A stretch of DNA of 64,000 nucleotides from Methylobacter sp. (GTDB taxonomy: Bacteria > Pseudomonadota > Gammaproteobacteria > Methylococcales > Methylomonadaceae), in the NCBI GenBank assembly GCA_030679035.1, contig JAUXTH010000151.1, positions 1-64,000 of the forward strand, read 5' to 3'. Positions 6,781 to 30,732 of the stretch are shown here, one piece after another. The notes under the pieces were generated by a model. It saw only the letters and a list, made by a program, of their open reading frames with translations. It did no database searches and was not told where the DNA came from. Every line of letters begins with the position of its first letter. Within the stretch, counting starts at the first letter, position 1. Made by a program: the position numbers and the translations under genes.

Positions 6781-6798
6781 TAGAAGTTAATAAAAATC

Positions 6799-8026: not shown

Positions 8027-8027
8027 A

Positions 8028-8774: not shown

Positions 8775-8788
8775 CCCAAAAAAAACTA

Positions 8789-10480: not shown

Positions 10481-10495
10481 CTTGCCAAGCTCCCT

Positions 10496-10768
10496 TTAGG
10501 CATATGCCGTCACCGGCAATAAAGCGGCAAGAATGTTGGGTGGAGTGGTTGTTGGTGTCGCTGTGACCGGTAATATCGTAAATACAGCTCTACCGCACTC
10601 CGCCAGTTCCTTTAGTTCTTCAAGCGACATGCATGACATTCTCTGGATTTCCACAGCATTCAGATTGAATTTCCAAATAGCATCCATAGGATGATGCCGA
10701 GCACACTCACGAACCACCATCAAAAACTGGAAGTTGAGATTTTTTAGGTCGTCGTTAACAAGATTCAT
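10496..10768 (-). CDS. FlhD-like small protein
   Basis: NLNFQFLMVVRECARHHPMDAIWKFNLNAVEIQRMSCMSLEELKELAECGRAVFTI has FlhD-like layout; immediately upstream of flhC-like gene. Confidence 0.6.
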   Translation of the reverse strand: MNLVNDDLKNLNFQFLMVVRECARHHPMDAIWKFNLNAVEIQRMSCMSLEELKELAECGRAVFTILPVTATPTTTPPNILAALLPVTAYA

Positions 10769-11015
10769 ACTGATTTATATCTAGGTATTGGGGTGGTTGA
10801 ATTTTGAATGGGATTAAATAAAAGTCATAGCTCGAAAGATTACAAAAAAACGAACATACCTGCGCAACCCTTGCTCTGCATGGCTTGTAAATTACTCACA
10901 AGAGTATTTTACGGATAACAAAAATAACGCAAGGGGGTAAACGGGCGAAAAACGATATTTTTTTGAGGTTTTTAGAAAAAATTTAAGGACTAAACCTGGG
11001 TCTGCGTTTCGAAAT

Positions 11016-11056
11016 CAAAAGAGGCCGAAAAACCGCGTCTTTCACCCCGATGTAAA
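11016..11056 (+). promoter_or_regulatory. Conserved tra-operon upstream motif, copy 1
   Basis: CAAAAGAGGCCGAAAAACCGCGTCTTTCACCCCGATGTAAA; 36/40 identical to copy 2 upstream of slt-traLEKBV. Confidence 0.75.
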
Positions 11057-11109
11057 AGATTTTTTTCTTGTAAGATTTTCATCACGCCGTCAACCGCGAG
11101 GAAAAATTT

Positions 11110-11175
11110 ATGAGAAAAGTAGTTGCCATTTGTTTATGCGCAGCATTTGCCGCACAAATCCCATCTTCAAAATAA
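11110..11175 (+). CDS. Possible 21-aa leader/secreted micropeptide MRKVVAICLCAAFAAQIPSSK
   Basis: Short ATG…TAA ORF between the regulatory motif and terD; positively charged n-region plus hydrophobic core. Confidence 0.3.
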   Translation: MRKVVAICLCAAFAAQIPSSK

Positions 11176-11202
11176 TTCATAACCACATAACGGAAAAAAA
11201 CC

Positions 11203-11778
11203 ATGGCAATACTATTGATTAAAGGCGGTAACATCAGCCTGACTAAAACCGATCCATTCTTAAAAAACATCATTGTTGGGCTGGGATGGGATGTTAGAGA
11301 AACCGACAGCGAAAGCTTCGATCTCGACACATCCATATTGATGATCCAATCGGACGGAAAAGCGCGATCAGACCGTGATTTCATTTACTACCATCAAAAG
11401 GATTCTGCTTGTGGCGCCGTGCATCATACCGGTGACAACAGAACCGGAGCGGGGGATGGTGACGACGAGTCGATTCATGTGTTTCTCGACAGAGTGCCGG
11501 CAGAAATCCACAAGCTGATTGTTTGTGTGTCTATTTACGAAGCCGACAAAAAGAAACAAAACTTCGGTCAAGTCTTGAGTGCCTTTATACGACTGGTTAA
11601 TAAAGAGACTCAGCAAGAGGTCACACGGTATGACCTGAGCGAAAATGCCTCCATGCATACAGCCATGATATTCGGTGAGATCTACCGTTATGACGGCGAG
11701 TGGAAATTTAAAGCGGTAGGACAAGGTTTTCAAGGCGGCCTTGCAGAATTAGTCAGACTGCACGGTATCAATGCATGA
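11203..11778 (+). CDS. terD: TerD-family protein
   Basis: Typical GLGWDVRETDSESFDLDTSILMI…, HHTGDNRTGAGDGDDESIHVFLDRVP motifs. Confidence 0.9.
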   Translation: MAILLIKGGNISLTKTDPFLKNIIVGLGWDVRETDSESFDLDTSILMIQSDGKARSDRDFIYYHQKDSACGAVHHTGDNRTGAGDGDDESIHVFLDRVPAEIHKLIVCVSIYEADKKKQNFGQVLSAFIRLVNKETQQEVTRYDLSENASMHTAMIFGEIYRYDGEWKFKAVGQGFQGGLAELVRLHGINA

Positions 11779-12077
11779 ATTCATTAACACCTCTCAAACT
11801 AATTTTAGTTTTGTTCGCCTGTGGCCTCAGTGGCGCTTTAGGCGGTTATTACGCAGCCTCTTTTTCGCCAATCCCCGCACAAATCGCTGTGGTGGATGTT
11901 AGCGCTTTGGTTATGAAAGCCGTCGAAAAAAATGCAACCCAGACGGAAGATGATGCCAAGGCATTAACTGCACGAGTCAAGGCAACGACCGATAAATTGG
12001 TTCAACGGGGCATTGTCGTACTGGATGCCCAATCCGTTCTTAATGCACCTGAGGAAGCTTATGTCAGCATTGAATGA
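11775..12077 (+). CDS. trbI: F-type conjugative transfer protein TrbI
   Basis: Small inner-membrane protein with IAVVDVSALV…; position before the S26 peptidase and TrbC/TraW. Confidence 0.75.
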   Translation: MNSLTPLKLILVLFACGLSGALGGYYAASFSPIPAQIAVVDVSALVMKAVEKNATQTEDDAKALTARVKATTDKLVQRGIVVLDAQSVLNAPEEAYVSIE

Positions 12078-12618
12078 CCATCAATTTTTAACGTTTGATC
12101 TTTTTATTGAAAGAAGCAAATCCTTTAGCCCTATTCTGGTTAAACATCTCAAGTCCCATGCTATTACCTGGGCGCTACTGGCTTCACTTTACGGAGTTGT
12201 TCACGCCAATTACCGGCTGGCTATCAATCAAACACCAAGCCTCCCTTACACACTGTTTCTGATTTGTCTCAATGACACCGTGGAAACAGGCGGATTCATA
12301 GCGTTCAAATGGCACAATGGCGCTCCCTATCCAGAGGGATACACGTTCACAAAGCGACTACTCGCAGGCCCAGGCGATGTTGTGACCAAAAAGGGGCGTG
12401 ACTTTGTGGTGGGCGAACGAACGCTAGTGGGAAAGGACGTCGGGTTAAGCCTGAAAAAACTATTCCCAAACGATGAGCTGCGGGAAGGCAAGAACACCCT
12501 TCAGCTCAATAAATACTTTGTCGCCGGCGACCATGAATACAGCCTGGATTCGCGTTACAACCTACTCGGGTTGGTGGATAAAAAAGATGTCATTGGCCGT
12601 GCGTACCCGATTTTCTAG
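12061..12618 (+). CDS. S26-family signal peptidase of the conjugation system (TraF/TrhF-like)
   Basis: S26-like LLAGPGDVV, YFVAGDHEYSLDSRYNLLGLV; start set to MSALNDH at 12061. Confidence 0.8.
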   Translation: MSALNDHQFLTFDLFIERSKSFSPILVKHLKSHAITWALLASLYGVVHANYRLAINQTPSLPYTLFLICLNDTVETGGFIAFKWHNGAPYPEGYTFTKRLLAGPGDVVTKKGRDFVVGERTLVGKDVGLSLKKLFPNDELREGKNTLQLNKYFVAGDHEYSLDSRYNLLGLVDKKDVIGRAYPIF

Positions 12619-13765
12619 TCGCCTCTTCGCAGTATTGATACTGCACCTGTCGTCCTCAATCGCAAGTGCGGGCGAGGACGATTTTTTTATCAAAGAGATC
12701 ATGAAAGAACAGCAACCGAACATGAATCGTCAGCTACCGGATTGGCTCAAAACCAAACCGGCGACACTCAGCCCTGTTTTTGAGCAATTATTGAAAGAGG
12801 GGAATAACGGTCCTCACGTCAATGCAAACGATGCAGACATGGAAAAATTACGCAGCTCGGAAAAACCGATACAAGGGCGATGGATATTTGTGTCAATGAG
12901 TATGCCGGCGCAGGAACTTAAAGCCGCTGCAGAAGAAGCTTCGGCTACAAAGTCCTCGCTGGTGTTCCGTGGCGTAGAAAAGGGGAACGATACAGGCACC
13001 ATTACACGCAGGCTGTATGCAACCGTGAAAGACATTAAACCGATACCCGGCGCAGTAATAGATCCCCTATTATTCACCCGATTCAATGTGCAAGCGGTAC
13101 CGACCATGATTGAGACCAATGCTGATGGTGAAACACGCACTGCTCGCGGGTTACCCGGATTTGCATGGATGTCCAAACAGGATGCCGGTGATCTCGGTCA
13201 AAGAGGTCCGGTGTTTGATATTGCCGAACCCGACATGATTGAAGAGATGCAACGGCGCATGACCGAATTCGACTGGGAAAAAGAAAAGAAACATGCGCTC
13301 GATAATTTCTGGGCGCAGCAAAAGGACTCAGTTAATCTTCCGGTTGCCGAGAAAAACCGTGAGCGTCGTATTGATACATCGATCGTTTCAACGCAGGACA
13401 TTTTTCATCCTGACGGTAGATTAATTATTAAAAAAGGGCAGACGATTAATCCACAAGCCCTGATGCCCATGCGTCACGCCTATATTCTGTTTGACGCCAC
13501 AAACAAAAAGCAGGTTGAAATCGCAAAAAAAATCGGCGACGAAATGTTGGTAAAGCAAAAACCGGTAGTTTACTTATTTTCCAAAATGAACACCGAGAAC
13601 GGATGGGATCATTACAACCAGACGACAGCGTTGATGAACGCCCCCATTTACAAACTCAACAAAACCATCATTGAACGATTCCGGATTCAGTCGTTGCCCT
13701 CGGTTGTTGAAGGACAAGGCGATACTATCCTGGTAAGGGAAATTGACGTAAGGGTGTTGAACTGA
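12587..13765 (+). CDS. TrbC-TraW fusion (pilin assembly / pilus assembly protein)
   Basis: TrbC-like WIFVSMSMPAQELK…DPLLFTRFNVQAVPT, followed by a TraW-like domain (DIFHPDGRLIIKKGQTINPQ…); start at 12587 overlaps the upstream gene. Confidence 0.8.
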   Translation: MSLAVRTRFSSRLFAVLILHLSSSIASAGEDDFFIKEIMKEQQPNMNRQLPDWLKTKPATLSPVFEQLLKEGNNGPHVNANDADMEKLRSSEKPIQGRWIFVSMSMPAQELKAAAEEASATKSSLVFRGVEKGNDTGTITRRLYATVKDIKPIPGAVIDPLLFTRFNVQAVPTMIETNADGETRTARGLPGFAWMSKQDAGDLGQRGPVFDIAEPDMIEEMQRRMTEFDWEKEKKHALDNFWAQQKDSVNLPVAEKNRERRIDTSIVSTQDIFHPDGRLIIKKGQTINPQALMPMRHAYILFDATNKKQVEIAKKIGDEMLVKQKPVVYLFSKMNTENGWDHYNQTTALMNAPIYKLNKTIIERFRIQSLPSVVEGQGDTILVREIDVRVLN

Positions 13766-14892
13766 TGCGAATTATTTTTACCCTTATCGTGTGTGTCTCG
13801 TCCCTGGTTTTTCAAACGACGCCATTAGCGCAAGACGTCGCCACCGCTGAAACCACGCAAAATATCGACGTTACCAAACTGCTTTGCCCGGATGCCGACT
13901 TTTGGGGAAAGAAAATGCTCACCGGTGTTTGTTGGTCATGTTTGTTTCCTGTTCGCTTGATGGGGTTCACTATTTTTGATGAGGGCGACGATTTACCAGA
14001 CGGAGCTACAAAAAAAGCGTTTTGTGCATGCAGTGGTGACGAAGGGCTTCCTACGTTCGGTATAACGGGAGGTGCCTGGCTGCCGGCCAGACTGATTGAG
14101 GTTGTCAGAAAACCGTATTGCTCACCAATACTCGGCGGAACATCATTTAACAGTGGCGTCCGTTTATGGGGAGGACACAAGGAGGTAGAGGGGGATGGCA
14201 CCGACAAAACGTACTACAACTATCATTATTGGGCTTTCCCTCTGTATGCGATTTTGCAATTATTTGTTCAAAACAACTGCAACGCCGGAGGACTTCGTAA
14301 TCTGGATATGATGTACATGTCCGAATTGGATCCGACCTGGAACGTCGACGAACTTGCATTCTTCATGAATCCCGAAGCCGTTGTATTCGCCAACCCATTG
14401 GCCGTTGCCGCCTGCACTGTTGATTGTGCTACTACGACGGTTTCCATGCCCATGACATCGCTATTTTGGTGCGCAGGATGCTGGGGCAATCTGTATCCAT
14501 TTACTGGAAATATTGCATCAGACGCATCAGCGCCCCGTGATACCAGTCTTTTAACAGCAAGGGTTCTGGCCTCACTCCATCGCAAGGCCTTAGCCCACAA
14601 AACCTATGGGGATGATGCGCTGTGCGGAGGGAAGATCTACCCGATGATCCCCAAGCAGCAGTACAAGCTGAGCACCTTGTTTCCTTTAGCAGAAGCTAAT
14701 GCGGAGGAACTTGAAAGCACAGATGCCAATGGAGTGAAGCACACAAAAATCCTTGACAACTGCTGTCACTGGATAGGTGAATCGACTTTCAAATGGGGTG
14801 AACATCGCACTATCCCAGGCACGGGCGAAGACTATGTTTACCTGATCTGGCGTTACACGGAATGCTGTCTTACCGGCGATAACGATCATTAA
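13765..14892 (+). CDS. traU: Conjugal transfer protein TraU
   Basis: Cys-rich TraU pattern (LTGVCWSCLFPVRLMGF, YWAFPLYAILQLF, ELDPTWNVDELAFFMNPEAVVFANP). Confidence 0.93.
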   Translation: MRIIFTLIVCVSSLVFQTTPLAQDVATAETTQNIDVTKLLCPDADFWGKKMLTGVCWSCLFPVRLMGFTIFDEGDDLPDGATKKAFCACSGDEGLPTFGITGGAWLPARLIEVVRKPYCSPILGGTSFNSGVRLWGGHKEVEGDGTDKTYYNYHYWAFPLYAILQLFVQNNCNAGGLRNLDMMYMSELDPTWNVDELAFFMNPEAVVFANPLAVAACTVDCATTTVSMPMTSLFWCAGCWGNLYPFTGNIASDASAPRDTSLLTARVLASLHRKALAHKTYGDDALCGGKIYPMIPKQQYKLSTLFPLAEANAEELESTDANGVKHTKILDNCCHWIGESTFKWGEHRTIPGTGEDYVYLIWRYTECCLTGDNDH

Positions 14893-14912
14893 AAAGAAGT
14901 TTGAGTCCAATA

Positions 14913-17717
14913 ATGCGATTTATTACCAAACCCATTGCCTGGGCTCTGATTGTTTGTCTGACGCATAACCCGGTTGCGGCGGTTTATATGATGACGGGTC
15001 TGCTGTTCTTTAAGCCATTTCCTGCATTTGCTGACGCATTTCTTGATCAAGCCGCCGAAGGCCAAACCTTCGGTACGGGTTTAATGACGGGCTATAGTAT
15101 CCCCAGTGTAAACAGTTCGACTGGGGAGATGACGCTCACGAACGGCGCGGTTGCTGGCCAAAAAGTGCAGCAGAACGAGCTGTTTCAGGAAATACAGCCG
15201 GGTTCAATGGATGGTATTTCAGCATCCTATGGGGACGCCGCCACATTGGGTACGCAGGTAAATAACGATCTCGGATCACTCACGACCGGCACGTCGACAC
15301 ATGCCTACGCCTATCAAACCCTGATGGGCGCTAATACAGCGATGCCTAATATGTACAACGATCCAATATGGAAAACATCGGACGACATCTATAGCCTGAA
15401 ATCGCCATTAATCAATGACCTGTTTAATGGGTGTGACAAGCAAACGAGCTATTCCGATACATCCTGCCCGATCCACATGGAGGATCTGAAGACCTGCAAG
15501 AAAACATTCAAAACCGAGTCGTGCAAAGTTAATAGGGTGATTACGCCGATCCCTGATACATCAAAACCCGTGCAAAAAGTATCGGTATCCAACGCAAGCG
15601 AAGTGTTCTTCAATGACACGGCATTGCCGGATGAGATCAGCATGCAAGTCGGGAATCCATGGAATGGATGGAATCAAGGAGATGGGTGCTGGTATGAAAG
15701 TTACACACTGACAATAAATGTTGTCGACGCCAAGCGATTGATTAGCGCAAAATTGGCCCAGGTGATAGGCGACGGCGGCGCACAAGTTATTATTGACGGC
15801 ACTGTCATTTGGAACTTGGCCGGCGGCGGTTGTTTAGATATTGACCCCTGGTCGTTTTCCCCAAACATTGATATTTTGCCGTACCTAACACCTGGGCAGC
15901 ATACTATTACATTTACGATCTTTTCTGATGACGATTCAACGCCTGACGGTGGCTCTTATTTTACGATTAAGAAAAAACCGGATTTTGAAGAAAGCTTTAT
16001 TGATTATCCGGCTGGCTGTCGTGCCCGCCTCTTTGCCAACGGGCCACCAACCGGCACGACGCCGTCCTTTATTTCAAGTGGTTCGTTAAATGATCAAGCC
16101 TCAACAGATTGGTGGAAGTGTACGGATGCGGCCAATTCAAGAACATTTGGTTCTATAACGATTACGCCAGATCCATACGCGCAATATTTGCAACCGATCT
16201 TGCCAGATCCTCCGGCGTCACCGCCGGCACCCATTTGTTATGCTGCAGAAACTCGTGTCCCAGGGCATATAACGTTACCGTGCTTTACCGACAAGGACGG
16301 TTACCAGGTTTGTCCTCAGTACGATTTCAATCTGGACGAACACACAAATTGCGATGAATTAACCTCAAATCCACAGTGCGGGTACGTTGGGGAAACGTGT
16401 GCGGCTGGCGCCGTGAGTCCGGTAACCGGGGTTTGCCAGGAATTTATTGTTACCTATGACTGCGGCACCGATCGTGCGGCAAGTTGCGATCAGGTAAACG
16501 ATGGTGAAAAAACCATCTGCGATAGCGGTATTCGTTGCATGGGAGGGGAATGCATCGATCAAAAAATAGAGTCGAACAAGGATTTTATTCGGGCCGCCAC
16601 CGCATTACAAACGCTCAATCAGGCACAACAAAGCAACGGTTGCGATCCATCCACTGGCGATTGCGCTTTGTTTGCCGGCGAGCCCATGGAGTGTCAAATG
16701 GCGGATCTATCCATCTTGGGGCAGGTCGATTGTTGCAACATGCCGATCCAAGGCAGTTGGATCGATTACATGTGGTTGGCAACTAATACCTGGGAGCTGG
16801 CCGATACCTCTGTGGAAGCTTATTCCATCGCACAAAACGGAGCTGTTCTTACAGATATGGTTGGCGCATGGAATATGGTATCTAGCGGTTCCGTGCTTCA
16901 GGCGCCTATTGGCGTTATCACGGATACCTGGAGCGCCGTCACCGAGCCGTTTACATCCATGTATGATTCTGTAGCATCGATGCTTGGCGAGGAAATTGGC
17001 ACAAATTTAGGCATAGAAGCTGCAAAACAACAAGTTGTGCAGTGGATGGGGGAATGGGTTGCGTCCATATTTGGTGATGCGGCAGCATCGACATTGTTGG
17101 CAGCCACATCAACTACTGTGGGGACAGTTACGACAACCACGTATTCAATGGCCGGATCAATGCTGTCTTCAATTATCACAGTAGTCGGCATTATTTATGC
17201 GATTTATCAGATCGCAAAAATGGTTGTGCAGCTGATTTTTGCCTGCACTGAGGAAGAAGTTAAGCTAAACATGCTCAAGCAGCAACGGTTATGCACCTCG
17301 GCCAGCGAAATTGGTGACTACTGCTCATCTGAAACACTCTTTGGTTGCGTTGCCAGAAAAGAAGCGTATTGCTGTTTTAGCAGTCCATTTTCCAGGATAT
17401 TTCAACAACAAGCGAGGCCACAGCTGGGCATAACGTTCGGCGACCCTAAAGCGCCGACATGCGAAGGGCTTCCTATTAATAAAATATCCCAGTTGGATTT
17501 TGACAAAATGGATTTCAGTGAATGGATCAATATGATGAAAATTTCAAATCTATTGCCCGTCGACAGCCTGACAGCCGACTCAATGTACGATAAAGCCAAC
17601 GTTACCAAAGGCAAACTACCTAACACTCAAAATACTAACACTCAAGATCGTTTAAATACTCAAACGCAAGGCAGTGATATTGATTCTATCAGACAGCATT
17701 TCTTGGACAATCTTTAA
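14913..17717 (+). CDS. traN: Conjugal transfer mating-pair stabilisation protein TraN
   Basis: Large Cys-rich secreted protein after traU; C-terminal CTEEEVKLNMLKQQRLC…CCFSSPFSRIFQQQARPQLG. Confidence 0.93.
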   Translation: MRFITKPIAWALIVCLTHNPVAAVYMMTGLLFFKPFPAFADAFLDQAAEGQTFGTGLMTGYSIPSVNSSTGEMTLTNGAVAGQKVQQNELFQEIQPGSMDGISASYGDAATLGTQVNNDLGSLTTGTSTHAYAYQTLMGANTAMPNMYNDPIWKTSDDIYSLKSPLINDLFNGCDKQTSYSDTSCPIHMEDLKTCKKTFKTESCKVNRVITPIPDTSKPVQKVSVSNASEVFFNDTALPDEISMQVGNPWNGWNQGDGCWYESYTLTINVVDAKRLISAKLAQVIGDGGAQVIIDGTVIWNLAGGGCLDIDPWSFSPNIDILPYLTPGQHTITFTIFSDDDSTPDGGSYFTIKKKPDFEESFIDYPAGCRARLFANGPPTGTTPSFISSGSLNDQASTDWWKCTDAANSRTFGSITITPDPYAQYLQPILPDPPASPPAPICYAAETRVPGHITLPCFTDKDGYQVCPQYDFNLDEHTNCDELTSNPQCGYVGETCAAGAVSPVTGVCQEFIVTYDCGTDRAASCDQVNDGEKTICDSGIRCMGGECIDQKIESNKDFIRAATALQTLNQAQQSNGCDPSTGDCALFAGEPMECQMADLSILGQVDCCNMPIQGSWIDYMWLATNTWELADTSVEAYSIAQNGAVLTDMVGAWNMVSSGSVLQAPIGVITDTWSAVTEPFTSMYDSVASMLGEEIGTNLGIEAAKQQVVQWMGEWVASIFGDAAASTLLAATSTTVGTVTTTTYSMAGSMLSSIITVVGIIYAIYQIAKMVVQLIFACTEEEVKLNMLKQQRLCTSASEIGDYCSSETLFGCVARKEAYCCFSSPFSRIFQQQARPQLGITFGDPKAPTCEGLPINKISQLDFDKMDFSEWINMMKISNLLPVDSLTADSMYDKANVTKGKLPNTQNTNTQDRLNTQTQGSDIDSIRQHFLDNL

Positions 17718-18801: not shown

Positions 18802-19236
18802 ATGCACGAAATTAGAACCGAAATTGAAATAGCAGCAACACCAGAACGCGTTTGGTCAATACTTATTGACTTCATCGCTTATCCCCAGTGGAATCCATTT
18901 ATTCGATCCATAAATGGGGTAGTAAAGACGGGTGAGCGGCTAACCGCATTCATTCAACCGACTGGCAGCAAAGGCATGACCTTTCGCCCTACCGTGCTTG
19001 TCGCGCTACCCAATCAGGAATTGCGTTGGCTCGGGCATTTCCTGCTGCCTGGAATCTTTGATGGTGAGCATTATTTTCAAATTGAACCTATCTCGCCGGG
19101 TCGAGTGCGATTTATACACGGCGAAAAATTTTCGGGTATTTTGGTCGCGCTTGCCAAGTCTAGTCTTGAGGGTGGAACAAAATCAGGACTCATGGCGATG
19201 AATCAGGCATTAAAGGTTCAAGCGGAAGCGGTGTAA
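18802..19236 (+). CDS. SRPBCC (START-like) domain protein
   Basis: EIEIAATPERVWSILIDFIAYPQWNPFI motif. Confidence 0.85.
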   Translation: MHEIRTEIEIAATPERVWSILIDFIAYPQWNPFIRSINGVVKTGERLTAFIQPTGSKGMTFRPTVLVALPNQELRWLGHFLLPGIFDGEHYFQIEPISPGRVRFIHGEKFSGILVALAKSSLEGGTKSGLMAMNQALKVQAEAV

Positions 19237-19292
19237 GTGAAAGCAAGCTAGATGTCTCCCCAGATTTGGTTATTACGCGATAAGGAAAAAAC

Positions 19293-19690
19293 ATGAAAGG
19301 TAGTTGTTTATGTGGGGCAATTGAGTATGAAATCGACAGCATTGATATGCCTATCGCTCACTGCCATTGCCGGACTTGCCAAAAAGCGCATGCGGCTCTC
19401 CGTTCGCCTCCAACGCCGGCGTAATGCGTGAGCACTTTCGCTGGGTGAAAGGTGAAGAAAAACTTTCATCCTTCGAGTCGTCTCCAGGAAAATTGCGCTA
19501 TTTCTGTTCGAAGTGCGGTTCTCATTTGGTGGCTGAGCGCGTGAACCAGCCCCACGTTATTGTTCGGGTAGCAACGCTGGATGAAAACCCGAATGTAACG
19601 CCTCAGGCGCCTATCTGGACGTCACACAATGTTCCGTGGCTCGAATACGAAGATATTCCTTCTTATCCGGAATGGCCGCCGGGGCGATAA
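19293..19690 (+). pseudogene. GFA-family protein, frameshifted
   Basis: MKGSCLCGAIEYEIDSIDMPIAHCHCRTCQKAHAA in one frame, continuing as PFASNAGVMREHFRWVKGEEKL…CSKCGSHL in another; about 2-nt CT insertion near 19398. Confidence 0.75.
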
Positions 19691-20319
19691 TGAAAGCGTA
19701 CTTTGACAGTAGTGAGTACATCGACTGGAAACATCCTTTGGTGGCTACCATGGCGGGGGCGCTTGCCGAGGATTGCCTTTCCGATGAGGCTATAGCGAAA
19801 CGTTGTTTTAAGTTCGTCCGCGATGCCATTAAACATAGCTGGGATTACCGGATGAACCCTGTCACCTGTAAAGCCTCTGAGGTATTAATTCACGGCACAG
19901 GGTACTGTTATGCCAAGAGTCATCTGTTGGCGGCGCTCCTAAGAGCCAATGCCATGCCAGCAGGGCTTTGTTATCAACGACTGATGGTCGAAACCGAAGA
20001 CCCTCCATATTGCCTACATGGACTGAATGCGGTTTACCTCAAACAATACGGCTGGTATCGCATTGATGCACGCGGCAATAAACCGGGTGTAGCCGCTGAG
20101 TTTTGCCCGCCTACAGAAAAGCTGGCTTTCCCAATTATTGACGCTTTGGAAAGGGACTTCCCGGAAATATGGACTGAGCCACTGCCACTGCCACTGGTGA
20201 TGAATGCATTGACCCAAAACAAGACAGTCGAGCAGGTCTTTGAGAACCTGCCGGATATTCAGGTTATAAAGACTTCGCCCACTTACTGCGCGCCTATTAC
20301 CTTGAGCCTTAAGGATTAA
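19690..20319 (+). CDS. Transglutaminase-like domain protein
   Basis: HGTGYCYAKSHLLAALLRA…, later His/Asp context (DARGNKPGV); ATG at 19690. Confidence 0.75.
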   Translation: MKAYFDSSEYIDWKHPLVATMAGALAEDCLSDEAIAKRCFKFVRDAIKHSWDYRMNPVTCKASEVLIHGTGYCYAKSHLLAALLRANAMPAGLCYQRLMVETEDPPYCLHGLNAVYLKQYGWYRIDARGNKPGVAAEFCPPTEKLAFPIIDALERDFPEIWTEPLPLPLVMNALTQNKTVEQVFENLPDIQVIKTSPTYCAPITLSLKD

Positions 20320-20321
20320 TC

Positions 20322-20681
20322 ATGGACAACACCTTTGCCGAACATTTTGCCAGCGACTGGATAGACTCGTGGAACAGTCATGATTTGCAGCGAATCTTGT
20401 CCCACTATGCTGACGATTTTGAAATGTCATCGCCCGTAATAACTCAGCTTGCTAGAACCCTTCGCGGTAAAGCAGCGGTTGGAGCCTATTGGGCTAAAAC
20501 TCTTTAACTCATTCCTGACTTGCGCTTCAAATTAATAACGACACTTGTTGGCGTGAACAGCGTCACTCTCTACTACCAAGGTGCGCAAGGCCATCTGGCG
20601 GCAGAAGTTTTTCATTTTAACCAAGACCAAAAAGTGACCGAAGCATTTACCCACTATTCACAATCTACGAGGCATCCATGA
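20322..20681 (+). pseudogene. SnoaL/NTF2-like protein with internal stop
   Basis: SDWIDSWNSHDLQRILSHYADDFEMSSP…AYWAKTL*LIPDLRFKLITTLVGVNSVTLYYQG; in-frame TAA at 20505-20507. Confidence 0.7.
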
Positions 20682-21001
20682 TAAAGATCAGCATCCTGTA
20701 CCCTAACAATAAAAGCTCCCGGTTCGATATGGGCTATTACATTGACACGCACATGCCTTTGTTCATTGGGCTTTTGAGCACTCATCCCGGTTTCAAGGGC
20801 GTTTCCGTCGAGCACGGACTCGGTGGCGCAATGCCGGGAACAGATGCCGCGTATATTGCCATGTGCCACTTTCTTTTTAATTCAGCTGAAGACTTCATGG
20901 CCGCTTTCACGCCGCACGCCGCAGTGCTTCAAGGTGATATGCCCAATTACACAGACATAGAGCCGATTATTCAAGTTAGCGAAGTTCTGATTTCCCAGTA
21001 A
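20678..21001 (+). CDS. EthD family protein
   Basis: MIKISILYPN…SRFDMGYYIDTHMPL motif. Confidence 0.8.
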   Translation: MIKISILYPNNKSSRFDMGYYIDTHMPLFIGLLSTHPGFKGVSVEHGLGGAMPGTDAAYIAMCHFLFNSAEDFMAAFTPHAAVLQGDMPNYTDIEPIIQVSEVLISQ

Positions 21002-21016
21002 CCATAGAGGATACCC

Positions 21017-21661
21017 ATGTACATACCTCCACAGTTTGAACAGCCCAATATTGGGGTCATGCACGAGCTGATTCGCAGTCGACCGCTTGCCACGCTGGTT
21101 ACGCTCGGATCAAATGGTCTCAACGCCAATCACATTCCGTTGCATCTTTCGCTGACACCTGAACCGTTCGGCGTTTTACGAGGTCATGTTGCTCGTTCAA
21201 ATCCAATCTGGTGCGATCTGGCACCGGATATCGAGGTGTTGGCTATATTCCACGGCCCGGACGCTTACATTAGTCCGTCTTGGTATGCAACCAAGCAGGA
21301 GGCAGGAAAGGTTGTTCCCACCTGGAATTACACTGTTGTTCATGCCTACGGTTCTTTGCGCATCATCGATGATGCTGTTTGGGTGCGTGCTCAGCTTGAG
21401 GCTCTGACAAACCATAACGAAGCCGTTTTTCCTGAGCCGTGGGCGGTGTCGGATGCTCCAGATGACTTTACCGAAAAGCTGATTGAGGCTGTTATAGGCA
21501 TTGAAATGGTTATCACCCGGCTATCCGGCAAGTGGAAAGTAAGTCAAAACCAACCGCCACAAAACCAGAATAGTGTTATACAAGGGCTGAATGCCAGCGG
21601 ACAAAGCGAGGCGGTCACAATGGCTGCACTGGTCGATTCCGGGGTAAAAAATGTACGCTGA
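21017..21661 (+). CDS. FMN-binding negative transcriptional regulator (PaiB-like)
   Basis: MYIPPQFEQPN…NHIPL, YISPSWYATKQEAGKVVPTWNYTVVHAYG. Confidence 0.88.
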   Translation: MYIPPQFEQPNIGVMHELIRSRPLATLVTLGSNGLNANHIPLHLSLTPEPFGVLRGHVARSNPIWCDLAPDIEVLAIFHGPDAYISPSWYATKQEAGKVVPTWNYTVVHAYGSLRIIDDAVWVRAQLEALTNHNEAVFPEPWAVSDAPDDFTEKLIEAVIGIEMVITRLSGKWKVSQNQPPQNQNSVIQGLNASGQSEAVTMAALVDSGVKNVR

Positions 21662-22394: not shown

Positions 22395-23465
22395 GTGGTT
22401 CAGCTTATTGAGGGCGTGTTAAGTCAGGGGCAACGTGAAAGTCTTGAGATAGAAGATTTCATTTTTCATATTATTGATCCCGATGCCGATGAAGATAAGC
22501 GGGTGATTTTTCTTGATGAGGTGAATTTGCATGCCAAACAGCGAGAATTTTTTCTAGCCAGATTAAAAGAAATAGCTGAAGGCACACAGTATAAGTTTCT
22601 GGAAGATGCCGTCCACCTCAAAGAACCATGTGTTGAAATTGTAAGTCGGTCAGATCGATTTATAGAATTATCTAGGCACATAACACAGGATTTTTCTGGA
22701 CGGCATAAAGGCCAGATGTCGCCAGGAGTGTTTGTCATTGCCACTGTTAAATATCTTGTGGCAGCAGGCAATTGGCAGAAATTAGTTTTTCTAGTCAAAA
22801 TGGACAAGCGCCCATCTTTCTCGTATAGCTACAAAAATGAAAATGGCAGGCTTGTGGCTGCTATGTCTGAGATTGAAAATGCACTGAGTGAAGCAAAATC
22901 AGCAATTCAAAAAAGCGCTTTGATTGATGTATCAAATGTTTTTGCATGGGATGTATTGGCTTTTGATCAAATAAAAAAACCATTACTTGGTGATTACTAT
23001 AAAGGCTTCCTGGGTGTTATAGAGCGACAAGAAGATTCATACCTAACGCGAAGCGCGCATATAACGGTTAAAAAATGGGCTCGCAAACTTACTAAAGAGA
23101 AAATGCCTGAAAATGAGGATGCTTTTGGTTACAGTGGTAGAGCATTTAATTATCTCGTCGATCATGATGCATTTGATACAGATGAGTTTATTAATGCTGT
23201 AGTAAGAGACGACGATCCTGAGCGTAAGGCGATTCTGAAAAATCAGCTTAGAGAAGAACTCGCAAGTGCTGGAATTAGTGGGCAACGTTTTCGCCCTCAG
23301 CCAGGATCGATTAGCACAAAGGATAAAAAACAGGTTTATAAAACAGAAGAGGGTGTAATTATTACCTTTGAAGGGGATAAAGCGGCTGTTGGATTAACTA
23401 CCGAAAACATAGGCAATAACCGTAAACGCATTATCATCGAAACTGGAAACTTAATCATCAAATAG
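22395..23465 (+). CDS. Nucleoid-associated protein (NdpA/YejK-like)
   Basis: 37-kDa nucleoid-associated protein-like features (HITQDFSGRHKGQMSPGVFVIATVKYL, VFLVKMD); GTG start. Confidence 0.7.
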   Translation: MVQLIEGVLSQGQRESLEIEDFIFHIIDPDADEDKRVIFLDEVNLHAKQREFFLARLKEIAEGTQYKFLEDAVHLKEPCVEIVSRSDRFIELSRHITQDFSGRHKGQMSPGVFVIATVKYLVAAGNWQKLVFLVKMDKRPSFSYSYKNENGRLVAAMSEIENALSEAKSAIQKSALIDVSNVFAWDVLAFDQIKKPLLGDYYKGFLGVIERQEDSYLTRSAHITVKKWARKLTKEKMPENEDAFGYSGRAFNYLVDHDAFDTDEFINAVVRDDDPERKAILKNQLREELASAGISGQRFRPQPGSISTKDKKQVYKTEEGVIITFEGDKAAVGLTTENIGNNRKRIIIETGNLIIK

Positions 23466-23471
23466 TCAATT

Positions 23472-24917
23472 ATGTCTGAATTGATTACCAAAATTCTATA
23501 TCACCTTAATATATTAATAGAGGCTTCAACGCGAGTTGATGAGCAAAGCTATCGTATTACTATTGAAGGCAATTCATTAGATGCAGGCTTAATTAAAGTC
23601 ATAAAAAACATTATTCAATTATCAATAGAACTAGAATTGGAAAAACCAAATGTCCTTATTGATAGTGAAAACATTGATTTTCAAGAAGATGAAGAAGGTT
23701 TTTATTTAGACCAGCCGTGGAGACTGATCTTTGCTAAAACATCTATCGCTAAACAGCTTAAAGCACGGGAAAATGAATCCACTTTCCTATTTATTTCACT
23801 TAATGGCTTTCAGAAATGGCTCAAGAATGTTGATCCGTTTGTTAAAAAATCAAATTTTGACCCTGATTTTGCAGAGCCGGTAACGTTTCGAATTCAGGGG
23901 CTTAAGAATAGTTTTGGAGGGCCAATGTTGTGGGTTCTTCCAATCGGTGCTGAATCGCCAAAAATAATCCAATCAAATTTACCCGAAAGCTCTGATGTGT
24001 GTGGTTTGATTCACATCAATGCAGATAAAGCCGTCAATATTTATCCAAATGGTTTCGCTTTAACTTGGGGTAATATTGATGCGCCTGAAGCAAACCATTT
24101 ACGCTATCTAAGCGCAATGGTGCTAGCAGTATGTTTGTCTCAAGAACTAAAGTATATTGACGGCGATCTTAAAATTACACTCCGGGGTGCAAAACGAATT
24201 GTTTTGTCTTTGACAGACTCTACTGAAATACCCTCATCAACTTTTTTGGGTAGCTTGGTTGACGCTGTTCGATGGGTTTATGCCGAGAAGCCTGAAACCC
24301 GTATAAAATTGTTGATGGACAGGCTTTCAGTTGATATTCAAACGGATCAAACGTTTTTGAAGGGCATGGAATGTTTTCTAAATGATGCAATCCATCAAGC
24401 TAAAGACAGTTATGATTTTGTTATTCTTGATAGGAAAGACGCGTATTATAAGGAATTACGAGAAGTAATGAAGGATATGAAGTCGCAGGCTGATTTGTTT
24501 GCGTCCAAAATAAGGGATTTAGTCGCATCATTAACGCGTGACATTTTGGGTGTTATGTTTGCAGTTGGGTTTGCCTTTTTTGGAAAATTTGACTCAAGTA
24601 AGCTTCATGAGTTACTAACATCTACTCATTTAGCATTATTCCTCAAAGTCCTTTCAGGATATCTTGTCCTTTCTTTTATTCTGCAATTTTCAATACATTG
24701 GGCCGACGCGAGACTGTCTGAGTCAGAAAGTAAAAAATGGTTATCGGTACTTAGGAACTACACCACTAAGGCAGATAATGATGATTATTTCGTAATACCT
24801 ATGCTAAAAAGAAAATGGTCATTACGCATTGGATTAGTGGTGGCGGGACTTATTTATTTATTATCCTCATTTATTGTCTGGAATTTGCAATGCATAGTTC
24901 AAGTTCTGTTGCCTTGA
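23472..24917 (+). CDS. Hypothetical protein with C-terminal membrane domain, operonic with ndpA-like gene
   Basis: 481-aa ORF beginning 6 nt after ndpA-like stop; about three hydrophobic segments near the C-terminus. Confidence 0.65.
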   Translation: MSELITKILYHLNILIEASTRVDEQSYRITIEGNSLDAGLIKVIKNIIQLSIELELEKPNVLIDSENIDFQEDEEGFYLDQPWRLIFAKTSIAKQLKARENESTFLFISLNGFQKWLKNVDPFVKKSNFDPDFAEPVTFRIQGLKNSFGGPMLWVLPIGAESPKIIQSNLPESSDVCGLIHINADKAVNIYPNGFALTWGNIDAPEANHLRYLSAMVLAVCLSQELKYIDGDLKITLRGAKRIVLSLTDSTEIPSSTFLGSLVDAVRWVYAEKPETRIKLLMDRLSVDIQTDQTFLKGMECFLNDAIHQAKDSYDFVILDRKDAYYKELREVMKDMKSQADLFASKIRDLVASLTRDILGVMFAVGFAFFGKFDSSKLHELLTSTHLALFLKVLSGYLVLSFILQFSIHWADARLSESESKKWLSVLRNYTTKADNDDYFVIPMLKRKWSLRIGLVVAGLIYLLSSFIVWNLQCIVQVLLP

Positions 24918-25347: not shown

Positions 25348-25746
25348 ATGAGCAAAAAAACCCTGAGCGAATCTGATATTTGCGCCAAGTACATCACGCC
25401 AGTCGTCATTCAGGCTGGATGGAATGATGCACTCCAAATTCGTCGTGAAGTCTTTTTCACCAAAGGGCGCATCATCGTTCGTGGCAAGTTGGTCACGCGA
25501 GGCAAGGCCAAGCCAAGCGGGCTGTTACATTCTCTATTACCAGCACTTTCCGATTGCCTTGATCGAGGCCAGGGAGAACAACTACGCCGTGGGCCACGGG
25601 ATGTAGCAGGCGCTGGATTATGCCGCCACGCAAGTACGGCAGGGGAAATCTGGGCTGGGACGACTTTGAGTGGGGGAATGCTTAATGGCAAGCTGTCTGC
25701 CCTGCGTTGGGTTCTAGGCGACGATTGGGATATGTTGGACACCTGA
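25348..25746 (+). pseudogene. Type I restriction HsdR N-terminal remnant joined to another gene tail
   Basis: LSESDICAKYITPVVIQAGWNDALQIRREVFFTKGRIIVRGKLVTRGKAK; continuation ILYYQHFPIALIEARENNYAVGHGM*QALDYA lies in another frame; ends with an unrelated-looking NGKLSALRWVLGDDWDMLDT tail. Confidence 0.65.
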
Positions 25747-25777: not shown

Positions 25778-27730
25778 ATGATTCTGACAGACAATGAGAC
25801 AAGTATTGATCTGCTAAACAACGAGGCGATCGCCATAACGATTATCGACTTGCTGCGGGAGCGTCCTGATCGGCCACTGACAATCGGTGTACATGGCGAC
25901 TGGGGAGCTGGAAAGTCGAGTGTTCTGGAAATGATCGAAGCGGGCTTCGTGGACGATGACAAGGTTCTATGCCTCAAGTTCAACGGATGGCGATTTCAAG
26001 GTTTCGAGGACGCCAAGATAGCGCTGATCGAAGGTATTGTGACAGGGCTTATCGAGAACCGCCCTGCGTTGACCAAGACTGCCATCGCAGCCAAGGATAT
26101 CTTTAATCGGATCGATTGGCTGAAGGTCGCCAAAAAATCAGGTGGCTTGGCCTTGACGGCCTTTACCGGCATCCCAACAGTGGGTCAGATCGGTACCATC
26201 GTGAGTGCACTTGAGGGTGTGCTGGCTGATCCCGGACAGTTGGCGAACAACGAAACTCTTACCACCGCAATTGATGATGTCAAGTCGATCCTGAAGCCAG
26301 CTGAAACAAAGAATGTGCCGCAAGAGATCGAAGGCTTTCGCAAAGCCTTTGATCAGCTTCTAAAGGATGCTAACGTCGAGCAGTTGGTTGTTTTGATTGA
26401 TGACCTTGATCGTTGTTTGCCGGACACAGCCATCGAAACACTCGAAGCCATCAGGTTGTTTGTCTTTACCGCACGCACGGCGTTCGTTGTCGCCGCCGAT
26501 GAGGCAATGATCGAGTATGCAGTGCGTAAGCATTTCCCTGACTTGCCTGAGACGACAGGTCCACGCGACTATGCGAGGAATTACTTGGAAAAACTGATCC
26601 AGGTACCTTTCCGTATTCCGGCGTTGGGCGAAACAGAAACACGTATCTATGTGACGCTACTGTTGGTTGGTGCAGAGATTGGGGAGGACGACAACTGCTA
26701 CGCAGAACTCATCAAAGCGGCCCGGTTGAAGTTAAAGCGACCATGGGAAAGCACACCACTCGACGCCGCGACTGTCAACAATGCCCTCGGCTACAAAGCT
26801 ACTAAAGCACATAACGCCCTGATGCTCAGTGACCAGATCGGACCTATTCTCGCCAGTGGCGCAAAAGGAAATCCCCGGCAGATTAAACGTTTTCTCAACA
26901 CACTGCTGCTGCGAAAGAGTACTGCGGATGCTCGTGGCTTCGGCGAAGATATTAATCTGCCAGTGCTCGCGAAGCTAATGCTGGCTGAGCGCTTCCTGCC
27001 TAGCCTGTTCGAGCAGATTGCAACTGTGGCGGTTACTCATCCGCAAGGACACTGCTTGAACTTAGTATCTTTGGAGTATGCCAGCGCATCCGATAGCAAC
27101 GGCACCACAAGAACTGAAACCAAAGAGAAATCTTCCGACGATAAAACGTCGAAGGCAGTGGTAGCCGCAGAGAGCACCATTCTTTCCGAGTGGAAGGCAT
27201 CACAATCGATTATGGCTTGGGCACGTGTGCAGCCATCTCTTGCAGAGATCGATCTTCGTCCTTATCTGTTCGTTACTAAGGACAAGAAAGATTACTTTGG
27301 CCCTGCATCGGCACTCGGGCATCTCGCCAAGGTCGCAGAGAAGCTTTTCGAATCGAAGCTGTCCGTCCAAGCATTGGAGTCGGAATTGAAACTACTCGCG
27401 CAACCCGAGGCGGAAAGTCTCTTTGAGGCGGTGCGAACCAAGATCATGAGTGGCGATAATTTCGATACCCAACCCGTCGGGGTTGATGGACTGGCCGTAC
27501 TGGTCAAGGCACAGCCCAGCTTACAGGGCAAACTGCTGGATTTCCTCGATGCTCTGCCTGTTAGCCGATGTGGCCCCTGGGTCGTAGGCGGTTGGCATAG
27601 TGCGCTCAAGGATACCGATGCAATTGCCAGGTACGAAAAGTTGCTTGACGGCTGGTCTAAGCTCACGAACAATCAGATGCTGAAACTTGCGGCAGCGGCC
27701 GCGAGTAAGACTAAGAAGGGAGGCAGCTAG
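25778..27730 (+). CDS. qatA: QatA: KAP-family P-loop NTPase
   Basis: GVHGDWGAGKSSVLEMIEAG Walker A, VVLIDDLDRCLPD KAP signature; followed by qatB, qatC, qatD. Confidence 0.88.
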   Translation: MILTDNETSIDLLNNEAIAITIIDLLRERPDRPLTIGVHGDWGAGKSSVLEMIEAGFVDDDKVLCLKFNGWRFQGFEDAKIALIEGIVTGLIENRPALTKTAIAAKDIFNRIDWLKVAKKSGGLALTAFTGIPTVGQIGTIVSALEGVLADPGQLANNETLTTAIDDVKSILKPAETKNVPQEIEGFRKAFDQLLKDANVEQLVVLIDDLDRCLPDTAIETLEAIRLFVFTARTAFVVAADEAMIEYAVRKHFPDLPETTGPRDYARNYLEKLIQVPFRIPALGETETRIYVTLLLVGAEIGEDDNCYAELIKAARLKLKRPWESTPLDAATVNNALGYKATKAHNALMLSDQIGPILASGAKGNPRQIKRFLNTLLLRKSTADARGFGEDINLPVLAKLMLAERFLPSLFEQIATVAVTHPQGHCLNLVSLEYASASDSNGTTRTETKEKSSDDKTSKAVVAAESTILSEWKASQSIMAWARVQPSLAEIDLRPYLFVTKDKKDYFGPASALGHLAKVAEKLFESKLSVQALESELKLLAQPEAESLFEAVRTKIMSGDNFDTQPVGVDGLAVLVKAQPSLQGKLLDFLDALPVSRCGPWVVGGWHSALKDTDAIARYEKLLDGWSKLTNNQMLKLAAAAASKTKKGGS

Positions 27731-28593
27731 TGGGAACATCGACTGCATACGGTGGGCCAGGCGGAGGTACACCACTTATTCCGTCATGGCTAGAATCGGA
27801 TGGCGAGGCAGGTGAACCTGCTGGGCTCACACAGCCGGACAGCCTCCCAGACAGCGCACCACCAGCACCACCAAATCGCCCCGAGATACCTGAGCCCTCA
27901 GACCCTAATCGCTTCATGGCGCCTCGAAGTAACTTCACTCGCTTTGCTCACTCCGATGGGAGCGATAGAGCTAGCTTGGGGCGCGCGGTTTCAGGCTACG
28001 TATCTACATCATCAGGAGGCGCACGACAAGCAGCACAACGCATGGGCGCTTCTCGGGGAGCTGGAGCTCGACTTTTAGGGTTCCTTACGGATGTTCAGAT
28101 TCGTGGTGAAAGGGAAGCTCTTCGAGCGCTGAACTTAGAGGCATTGGCGGGACGTCCGATTGATGAAATATTCGTCGGTTTGGCTGACTACATCTGTCCG
28201 AATGCTGGAACCGTTGACGATGGTATCGCTAGGGAAGCGTTCGTCGAAACGATCATCGAGCTTACAACAATGGGTGTCACCGATTTGGATGCACTTACGC
28301 CTGACCAAATGCAGACGGTCTTCGAGCTGTATGCAACTCACGCTATCGAAGCGCGCTTGTGTAACGACATTGGTACCAAGCTCATCACTATGCCCGCCAA
28401 TGCGCAAGCTGCACTCCGTATCCAAGAACAGTTACGAGATTTTATTCGCAATGGCGTCAGTGATGCACTGACCGCAGCTCGCACCGAAACGCCGGTACTG
28501 ACGCAGGATCGCATCCAGGCATTTGTCGATTCGGTTTATGAACGTTCCTTTGGAATTCTCAAGGCACTTGGCGACGCGGAGGCCAACCAATGA
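27730..28593 (+). CDS. qatB: QatB
   Basis: GTG start overlapping the qatA stop; Pro-rich N-term then RQAAQRMGASRGAGARLLGFLTDVQ; position in the Qat operon. Confidence 0.8.
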   Translation: MGTSTAYGGPGGGTPLIPSWLESDGEAGEPAGLTQPDSLPDSAPPAPPNRPEIPEPSDPNRFMAPRSNFTRFAHSDGSDRASLGRAVSGYVSTSSGGARQAAQRMGASRGAGARLLGFLTDVQIRGEREALRALNLEALAGRPIDEIFVGLADYICPNAGTVDDGIAREAFVETIIELTTMGVTDLDALTPDQMQTVFELYATHAIEARLCNDIGTKLITMPANAQAALRIQEQLRDFIRNGVSDALTAARTETPVLTQDRIQAFVDSVYERSFGILKALGDAEANQ

Positions 28594-29963
28594 ATAGACA
28601 CCTCATTGTGGGCCGCTTCGGCCCCGACGATCAGATTCCCATTCCAAGCGCTACTGACGAACAGATGACACGACTGGAGCTTGTCTCTGGCAAAAAGTCG
28701 CTCGACCATGGCATTGACGAAGCCTTGACCATCCTCAAACGCTTAGGCGTTTTTCCCTCTGAAATTGGCCTTGATCTGCTTATTGTAGCCGCACATGTTC
28801 ACGCCGCCGACACGAGAATCTCGCGCATCGAACAATCGCAAGACTCATGGACACGCGAAATCAGACTTGTGGTGCCTGTCAGCGATCCTAATCATTGGAA
28901 TAATGCAGCAGGAACCCTTAAATGTATACTCGAATTTCTGACTGGAGATCGTTGGTCCGTGGGTTTTAGGTCCAGACCAGAACGATTTATCAGTATCATT
29001 ACTTCACAAACCGCATTGCTACCATCGACATTCGACGAGGTCAGCTTATTTTCGGGTGGACTGGACAGCTTGATTGGTGCCATCGACCTTCTGGAGAGCA
29101 AGCGCACACCCCTCCTAATCAGCCACGCGGGAGATAGTGCATCGAGTGATGCTCAAAACAAACTGTTCGCTAAGCTGAAAAACCATTACACCGGTTCATT
29201 GTTCGATCGACTTCGGTTACCAATGGTTTTTGCCAACGGTTTTGTGGAAGGCGTTGGCTCCGAAAACACTACCCGTGGTCGGTCATTCCTGTTCTTCGCG
29301 CTTGGCGTGTTCGCTGGCACGGGGCTTGATTCCCATTTCGTGCTACGCGTACCAGAAAACGGGCTTATCGCACTGAATGTGCCCTTGGATCCTTTGCGAC
29401 TGGGCTCCAACAGCACGAGAACCACCCACCCGTTCTACATGGCCAGATGGAACGACTTGCTCGCCGAACTGGGCATCGATGGAAGAGTTGAGAATCCGTA
29501 TTGGCACAAGACCAAAGGTGAGATGGTCGCATCATGCGCAAATAAAATACTACTTCGCTTGCTCGTTAACGACTCTCTTTCGTGCTCATCACCTGCATCG
29601 GGCCGATGGCAAGGGCAGCAAGGGCACGGAATTGAGCACTGTGGATACTGCCTTCCATGCTTGATCCGTCGCGCTTCGCTTGAAGCTGCTTGGGGGCCTG
29701 GCCACGATTCGACTGTCTACACCGTGCCTGATCTTCGAGCACATCCGCTGGACACGCACGAATCGATCGGCAAACAGGTTCGCTCGTTTCAGTTTGCGAT
29801 CGAGCGGTTGCGCAGGCGGCCAGACTTGGCAAAATTGCTCATTCACAAACCTGGGTCGCTTACTGACGAAATCCCGCACCTCGATCAATTGGCAGACGTC
29901 TATCGACGCGGACTCGACGAGGTCGCGCAGTTAATAGACGGCGTCACCACAAAGCCGACCTGA
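28590..29963 (+). CDS. qatC: QatC: QueC-like protein
   Basis: SLFSGGLDSLIGAIDLL PP-loop motif; CGYCLPCLIRRA Cys motif; overlaps qatB. Confidence 0.88.
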   Translation: MNRHLIVGRFGPDDQIPIPSATDEQMTRLELVSGKKSLDHGIDEALTILKRLGVFPSEIGLDLLIVAAHVHAADTRISRIEQSQDSWTREIRLVVPVSDPNHWNNAAGTLKCILEFLTGDRWSVGFRSRPERFISIITSQTALLPSTFDEVSLFSGGLDSLIGAIDLLESKRTPLLISHAGDSASSDAQNKLFAKLKNHYTGSLFDRLRLPMVFANGFVEGVGSENTTRGRSFLFFALGVFAGTGLDSHFVLRVPENGLIALNVPLDPLRLGSNSTRTTHPFYMARWNDLLAELGIDGRVENPYWHKTKGEMVASCANKILLRLLVNDSLSCSSPASGRWQGQQGHGIEHCGYCLPCLIRRASLEAAWGPGHDSTVYTVPDLRAHPLDTHESIGKQVRSFQFAIERLRRRPDLAKLLIHKPGSLTDEIPHLDQLADVYRRGLDEVAQLIDGVTTKPT

Positions 29964-29976
29964 TGGAGGAAGAGTC

Positions 29977-30732
29977 ATGATTACGCTTGAGGGCCTAGTC
30001 GATTTCCACTGCCACCTTGACCTCTATCCCGATCATCGAGCGGCAGTACAAGAGGCAGATGCGGCCGGTGTTTTCACACTTGCCGTGACGACTACCCCGA
30101 GAGCTTGGCCACGCAATCACGAATTCGCGCGAGCTACACGCCATGTGCGTGCGGCACTTGGGCTTCATCCCCAACTCGTTGGGGAACACGCCAGCGAGTT
30201 GGCATTATGGGACGCACACCTTGCGGAGACGCGATATATTGGCGAAGTTGGACTTGACGCGGGTCCGCGCTTCTATAAATCGTTTGACCTGCAGAAGCAG
30301 GTTTTCGAGCATATTTTGCGGCGCTGTGCGGAAGCGGGTAACAAGGTGATTTCCGTGCATAGTGTTCGGACGGCAAAGGCCGTGCTAGATCACATCGAGG
30401 CATATCTTCCCCCCGGGCAAGGGAAGATCGTGCTTCATTGGTTTACAGGAACTAAGGCTGAAGCCAAGCGCGCTATCGAGATGGGCTGCTATTTTTCCGT
30501 AAATGCCGCGATGTTTAACAGTGAACGTCATATTTCTATGGTTTCGGCGCTCCCGCTAGAAAGGCTGCTGACGGAAACGGATGGCCCCTTTACCCAAACG
30601 GGCGGGCGTCCATCAAAGCCATCCGATGTACTGGTTGTCGTTGAGGCCATAGGTCGTTTGCACGGTTTATCATCCCTTGAAGTGATAGCGAATATAAAGG
30701 CTAACCTGCGCGGGTTGCTTGAATTCACGTAG
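29977..30732 (+). CDS. qatD: QatD: TatD-family DNase
   Basis: VDFHCHLDLYPD, ALGLHPQLV, YIGEVGLDAGPRF, SVHSVRTA, LLTETDGPF TatD motifs. Confidence 0.9.
   Translation: MITLEGLVDFHCHLDLYPDHRAAVQEADAAGVFTLAVTTTPRAWPRNHEFARATRHVRAALGLHPQLVGEHASELALWDAHLAETRYIGEVGLDAGPRFYKSFDLQKQVFEHILRRCAEAGNKVISVHSVRTAKAVLDHIEAYLPPGQGKIVLHWFTGTKAEAKRAIEMGCYFSVNAAMFNSERHISMVSALPLERLLTETDGPFTQTGGRPSKPSDVLVVVEAIGRLHGLSSLEVIANIKANLRGLLEFT

Follow-up and report, generated by a model that had tools for sequence, protein, structure and literature searches.

A mobile gene pair coupling a YejK-like protein to a membrane protein in Methylobacter is very likely a divergent variant of YejK-domain defense systems

Introduction

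YejK/NdpA has been counted among the nucleoid-associated proteins for a long time, with little explanation of its function. What, then, does a YejK-like gene do when it is found on a mobile element, directly followed by a gene for a membrane protein? Such a pair lies in a 64,000-nucleotide stretch of DNA from Methylobacter sp. (contig JAUXTH010000151.1, positions 1 to 64,000), referred to here in its entirety as the window. The original prediction took the pair for a candidate undescribed two-gene defense system, possibly one in which a DNA-binding sensor works with a membrane effector. Here we report a computational analysis of the two genes (A and B), their relatives and their surroundings.

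Results

The window pair consists of two selected genes on an apparent conjugative element

The two genes and the neighbors that matter for their interpretation are listed below, with the basis of each assignment in parentheses.

22395 to 23465, + strand: gene A, protein of predicted NA37/NdpA(YejK) fold, 356 aa (open reading frame)
23472 to 24917, + strand: gene B, 481-aa protein (open reading frame)
24519 to 24575, + strand: transmembrane (TM) segment TM1 of gene B, residues ~350-368 (Kyte-Doolittle)
24627 to 24683, + strand: TM2 of gene B, residues ~386-404 (Kyte-Doolittle)
24822 to 24878, + strand: TM3 of gene B, residues ~451-469 (Kyte-Doolittle)
25348 to 25746, + strand: N-terminal remnant of an EcoAI-type HsdR, type I restriction subunit (NCBIfam NF046051, E 1e-12)
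25778 to 30732, + strand: neighboring Qat defense system, qatA-qatD (PADLOC QatA/B/C/D, E 0 to 1e-122)

Both open reading frames (ORFs) lie where they had been predicted, with gene B starting 6 nt past the stop of gene A. The start codon of gene A is GTG, with a purine-rich TTGGAGA stretch upstream. When the 3.4-kb stretch was shuffled 300 times under a Markov model, no ORF exceeded 185 aa, so neither gene is a chance reading frame. The closest copy of gene A is found in a Methylococcaceae MAG, and comparison with this 91%-identical copy (contig JABFSH010000026.1) gave dN/dS values of 0.030/0.310 for gene A (~0.1, first 300 codons) and 0.053/0.274 for gene B. This purifying selection on both indicates that the genes are real and selected. 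Their G+C content (0.395 for gene A, 0.367 for gene B) is well below that of the window (0.473) and of the adjacent Qat genes (0.53), a difference that recently acquired genes would be expected to show.

The 91%-identical copy in a Methylococcaceae MAG (L004:5780-11676) also carries an IS21-type element with IstA/IstB-like ORFs, which is inserted near the 3' end of gene A; gene B is intact downstream.

The pair looks like cargo of an integrative conjugative element (ICE) linked to tRNA-Gly/tRNA-Cys. These tRNA genes are followed by an integrase gene (6941-8026), TraN was identified with NCBIfam at 14901-17717, and other F-type transfer genes were recognized by eye; the cargo is bordered by the tRNA genes, the integrase and an F-type transfer region split in two (window positions 6580-17717 and 36302-62200). 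The same element carries the Qat system, whose A-D proteins are near full length in PADLOC and complete-looking. The HsdR remnant spans positions 1-51 of the 768 in NF046051 and is a neighbor, not part of the pair. The surroundings described in the original prediction are mostly correct: Qat and the HsdR remnant were recovered and an Abi remnant was not found, and several of the left-hand neighbors (18802-21661), described there as decayed, are intact-looking ORFs.

Gene A is distantly related to YejK

The gene A protein of the window has no TM segments and matched nothing in Pfam, NCBIfam or PADLOC profile scans. Its relatives are more informative. Five of the six first-round alignment members of the A family scored above the Pfam cut-off of 24.6 bits for NA37 (PF04245), the best at 57 bits, and relatives matched most of the profile, with E values as low as 2.8e-15; E. 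coli YejK/NdpA belongs to this family. An AlphaFold model of gene A (pLDDT 75, pTM 0.64) matched E. coli YejK (PDB 9be2) with an E value of 4.1e-6, a probability of 1.00 and 342 aligned columns, and the structure search returned no other significant PDB match. The TM-score against 9be2 is modest (0.39-0.41), so the placement of domains within gene A is uncertain. Together, the NA37 matches and the model support the "NdpA/YejK-like" label, for a likeness that is real but distant (~15% identity), and by this modeling gene A has the YejK fold. DNA binding by the gene A product would follow from that fold, and we propose that it serves as a DNA-associated sensor or DNA-binding component.

Residues invariant among 39 A sequences include I23, H25, F52, F53, F68, F89, G111, K135, Q172, L206 and T317. 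A search of the window genome found no canonical YejK.

Gene B has a large soluble part and three C-terminal TM segments

ORF analysis and hydropathy agree with the predicted architecture of the 481-aa second protein: a soluble N-terminal part of ~340 aa is followed by a charged juxtamembrane helix and three C-terminal TM segments, the positions of which are kept in relatives. Six residues are conserved in at least 95% of 39 sequences (W268, E275, K327, K334, W423 and P443); K327 and K334 lie in the conserved charged helix just before the membrane, and W423 and P443 in a conserved loop between TM2 and TM3. By the positive-inside rule, the N-terminal part and the TM2-TM3 loop are probably cytoplasmic. 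We propose that the gene B product is a membrane effector or anchor.

Gene B had no matches in Pfam, PADLOC, NCBIfam or the PDB, and its AlphaFold model, built from a 6-sequence alignment, was poor (pLDDT 47.5). We considered a SLATT domain and rejected it: the SLATT_1 model found no match in the whole window genome, and the DUF4231 model gave only chance-level matches there, all outside gene B.

Genes A and B form an obligate pair

The claim of a two-gene unit held throughout the relatives that we tabulated, in all of which (38/38) gene B adjoins gene A on the same strand. The gap between them ranges from +55 nt down to overlaps and is mostly an overlap, with the long overlaps depending on the start codon chosen. 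The closest tabulated relatives of the window pair are L072 (63% identity for A, 46% for B) and L201 (46/36%), followed by Xanthomonas locus L005 (38/26%).

Pairing was also assessed in a Pseudomonas-like genus from both directions. Gene A matched in 32 of 400 genomes, including one with a different NA37 subtype and one weak match, and two of the 32 held only fragments of A, without B. In each of the 26 newly retrieved loci that carry a substantial A, B was adjacent (A was split in one of them and B in another), as it was in two loci found earlier (L019 and L020). Searching with gene B instead, we obtained matches in 24 of 340 genomes, every one of them (24/24) beside an A. Likewise, on plasmids or at loci of Xanthomonas, Methylocystis, Pantoea and Rhizobium and on pKAZ5, every A is directly followed by a second gene that is a relative of B; a first tblastn with gene B detected Xanthomonas only.

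The pair is sporadic and carried by many kinds of mobile element

If the pair were a core housekeeping locus, it should be general among relatives, and this was not the case. We found it in 2 of 101 relatives, in 1 of 369 genomes of the class and in 7 of 399 at the phylum level, three of these being weak matches, two of which proved YejK-like when opened. Among complete E. coli genomes, 33 of 5426 carry the pair or a close match. A housekeeping role is thus rejected by the sporadic distribution.

The elements that carry the pair are diverse. In two E. coli Rac-type loci that we inspected, the pair occupies a site in the Rac prophage with the antiterminator Q on one side and, on the other, the late operon, which is transcribed in the opposite direction; in a second E. 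coli variant, the pair directly follows the integrase at the tRNA-Leu gene leuX and is itself followed by PtuA/PtuB-like (Septu) genes. Other lambdoid prophages carry it beside a Q-like gene, and a P2-like prophage beside an integrase (gene names in both read from translations). It is also found on the Mu-like Thiobacimonas phage vB_ThpS-P1, on the IncC plasmid pKAZ5 and on plasmids of Xanthomonas, Pantoea, Methylocystis and rhizobia, symbiosis plasmids among them. Viral contigs and phage records contain few members, which marks the pair as cargo of prophages, plasmids and islands and not as a gene of lytic phages.

One such prophage also holds a PP2C-type phosphatase and a Ser/Thr kinase together near the A-B pair (L011:4702-6239), a candidate second defense cargo.

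This range of carriers bears on whether the pair might simply help its element, organizing or segregating the element's DNA at the membrane with no role against phage. NA37 proteins are indeed nucleoid-associated, and on large plasmids, several copies lie close to genes for partition or transfer. However, the pair also occurs on short islands, in prophage cargo slots and on a Mu-like phage, which share no replication or transfer genes, and it is placed beside many different defense systems. We regard an accessory nucleoid or conjugation role as very improbable.

Defense genes are common beside the pair

The pair had been placed in a defense hotspot of a mobile element, and a guilt-by-association analysis agreed: in unrelated hosts it sits in defense islands or mobile-element cargo sites, and defense genes are common among its neighbors. 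Neighbors across loci include Gabija, DRT, type I restriction-modification, Septu and Qat. HsdS and HsdR lie beside the pair in L020 (read from translations), and in Methylocystis it is near phospholipase-D-type and DUF1156 anti-phage genes.

To put this on a firmer footing, we scanned with PADLOC 149 ORFs flanking pairs of the Pseudomonas-like genus and 129 control ORFs taken at arbitrary positions of the same genomes. The flanking ORFs matched 104 models at 1e-15 or better, while the control ORFs matched 38, for the most part housekeeping paralogues (DinG, RtcR and UvrD, for example). Because the models are redundant, these are not gene counts, and match quality is the better argument: the flanking matches included, at full strength, GajA (E 0), GajB (1.6e-291) and DRT UG17 (3.4e-156), with further matches to methyl-directed restriction and SoFic. 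A Pfam scan of the flanking ORFs added NERD, HipA, GmrSD, Fic and SIR2. The pair itself belongs to no PADLOC system that we could recognize, as none of six A or six B proteins matched one at E 1.

Together, obligate pairing, sporadic mobility, defense neighbors and purifying selection make it very likely that the pair is a mobile two-gene anti-phage defense system.

Accessory NA37 genes of other subtypes also have partners

A PF04245 scan of one enterobacterial family found a single high-scoring NA37 gene in nearly every full-size genome, which we take as core yejK, and besides it about a dozen lower-scoring accessory NA37 genes. At the two core yejK loci that we inspected, no B partner was present, whereas gene A always comes with B and is both rare and mobile. 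All 11 accessory loci that we fetched (11/11) contain a partner gene. One of them, L201, is of the window type. Five others (L191-L195) encode TM partners of 388-442 aa that are mutually homologous (hhalign 97.8%). The C-terminal region of gene B did not match these partners significantly (hhalign probability 1.8%); the best alignment, likewise not significant, is in register at the juxtamembrane/TM part.

An NA37 protein with a zinc finger accompanies a TM partner at L194:3610-5975, at L195:4028-6452 and, in E. coli, at L215:7791-10181. In L195 and L215 these two genes lie in a lambdoid prophage beside the antiterminator Q, the prophage slot that the A-B pair also uses, and the subtype is found in ~106 of 5426 E. 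coli genomes.

In L197-L199, a SLATT/DUF4231 protein, an NA37 protein and a GTP-pyrophosphokinase-like protein are encoded together, an annotation taken from RefSeq in E. coli thrW integrase islands and supported by PDB matches to YwaC. In the thrW islands, the NA37 gene sits between those for the SLATT membrane protein and the enzyme. The three-gene unit occurs at L197:3767-6338, L198:3539-6106, L199:3786-6246, L214:7977-10551 (E. coli SCU-102, thrW island) and L216:7286-9806, and looks like a defense system that is not yet listed. These islands resemble the window pair in coupling NA37 to a membrane protein within an integrase island (E. coli thrW; L214, L216); they differ in having an extra nucleotide-synthetase-like enzyme, which shows no profile relation to B, and a small SLATT/DUF4231 membrane protein. 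L196 combines NA37 with the GTP-pyrophosphokinase-like enzyme, without an obvious SLATT gene.

Another NA37 subtype, at L200:2075-5131, has no TM partner; downstream of the NA37 gene, two soluble proteins of 306 and 380 aa are encoded.

Taken together, NA37 might be a general phage-sensing module in an unnamed superfamily of membrane-effector defense systems. The partner would differ by subtype: a 3-TM protein in the window type, a protein with 1-3 TM segments in a type whose NA37 may or may not carry a zinc finger, and a SLATT pore protein together with a GTP-pyrophosphokinase-like signal synthase in a third. We offer this superfamily, with its subtypes, as a tentative reading.

A YejK-domain system is active against phage in E. 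coli

DefensePredictor (DeWeirdt, Mahoney and Laub, Science 2026, PMC13092281) led to the cloning of 94 predicted units from 69 E. coli strains, and the YejK nucleoid-associated domain is among the domains newly validated there in phage defense. The main text gives the domain name, YejK, without a gene name, and TM and CC are among the abbreviations in the legend of the figure that shows the YejK system. A YejK-type domain is common to that system and gene A, and the validated system may be the E. coli version of this pair (33/5426) or the zinc-finger NA37 subtype (~106/5426). The window pair belongs to another lineage than the E. coli pair, to which it is 24% (A) and ~17-21% (B) identical. 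The original interpretation is partly supported: an NdpA-like protein with a membrane partner, an obligate unit of two genes, mobility and a place in defense hotspots were all borne out, while the word "undescribed" is weakened by what PMC13092281 reports. We consider the pair in the window to be a divergent variant of YejK-domain defense systems, the first validation of which, as far as we found, dates from 2026. Our literature search returned no other paper linking YejK or NdpA to phage defense; a V. cholerae paper that it met concerns Fis.

The same validation bears on an alternative of a different kind, in which gene A represses or neutralizes a membrane-toxic B. As a toxin-antitoxin or superinfection exclusion module, the pair would be selected for maintenance of its element or exclusion of related elements, with phage defense as a side effect. 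Such a module would fit with the coupling or overlap of the two genes and their presence on many plasmids and prophages, with the decayed A copies without B in L090 and L091 and with the HipA-type genes among the neighbors. However, gene A encodes a large protein of predicted YejK fold, unlike known antitoxins, defense genes are common beside the pair, and a YejK-domain system has phage-defense activity in E. coli (PMC13092281). These points make the toxin-antitoxin or exclusion reading improbable.

Discussion

How might the pair act? The arrangement recalls Kiwa, in which the membrane protein KwaA recruits the DNA-binding KwaB to sites of injection, where KwaB binds but does not cut (reviewed in PMC12904381). 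Like Kiwa, the pair combines a membrane protein with a soluble DNA-binding-type protein in two genes, and it is similarly sporadic, Kiwa being present in 9 of 150 genomes of the Pseudomonas-like genus. Order and size differ: KwaA has ~200 aa and comes first, whereas B has 481 aa, comes second and has only C-terminal TM segments. Homology to Kiwa was rejected using KwaA and KwaB sequences from Pseudomonas-like genomes. The A family against nine KwaB (PF16162) sequences gave an hhalign probability of 0.1% and the B family against KwaA 0.15%, both below 1%, and there was no Pfam or PADLOC match to Kiwa.

By a Kiwa-like or SNIPE-like mechanism, B would anchor A at the inner membrane, where the complex would seize entering phage DNA and block phage replication and transcription without killing the cell. 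Apart from the two-part layout shared with Kiwa (PMC12904381), this tethering would suit the nucleoid association of YejK, the long soluble part and few TM segments of B, and the lack of nuclease-family matches in either protein. On the other hand, no homology connects the pair to Kiwa, and the sister subtype with a SLATT protein and a nucleotide-synthetase-like enzyme suggests signaling to an effector instead. Tethering is thus rather unlikely, if well worth keeping in view.

SLATT proteins are predicted pore-forming effectors, and the combination of a pore effector with a nucleotide synthetase is known from CBASS-like systems. Because the SLATT subtype joins NA37 to both, we favor a mechanism in which a DNA-associated sensor (A) works with a membrane effector (B), a reading that we judge plausible, at a little short of an even chance. 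The gene A product would detect some feature of the phage, be it the DNA itself, its topology or a complex bound to phage DNA. The gene B product would be held in the inner membrane by its three C-terminal TM segments, and A on phage DNA would engage its N-terminal part. The juxtamembrane helix and TM segments of B could then perturb the membrane and stop phage production, a stop for which the infected cell would probably pay. Both the binding of A to B and the effector role of B are inferred here. Against that role, B has no homology to known effectors in Pfam, PADLOC or the PDB; a protein with so long a soluble part and three TM segments could equally be a tether or a pore, and the SLATT analogy concerns a different partner than B.

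Were the superfamily reading true, a fold known from nucleoid proteins would couple the sensing of DNA to disruption of the membrane. As PADLOC 2023 has no model for the pair, many genomes carry probable defense loci that go unannotated. Natural E. coli versions exist in the Rac prophage, at leuX and thrW and in lambdoid prophages. Mobile YejK relatives that are always coupled to a partner, mostly a membrane protein, and that reside in defense sites would give this fold a testable role.
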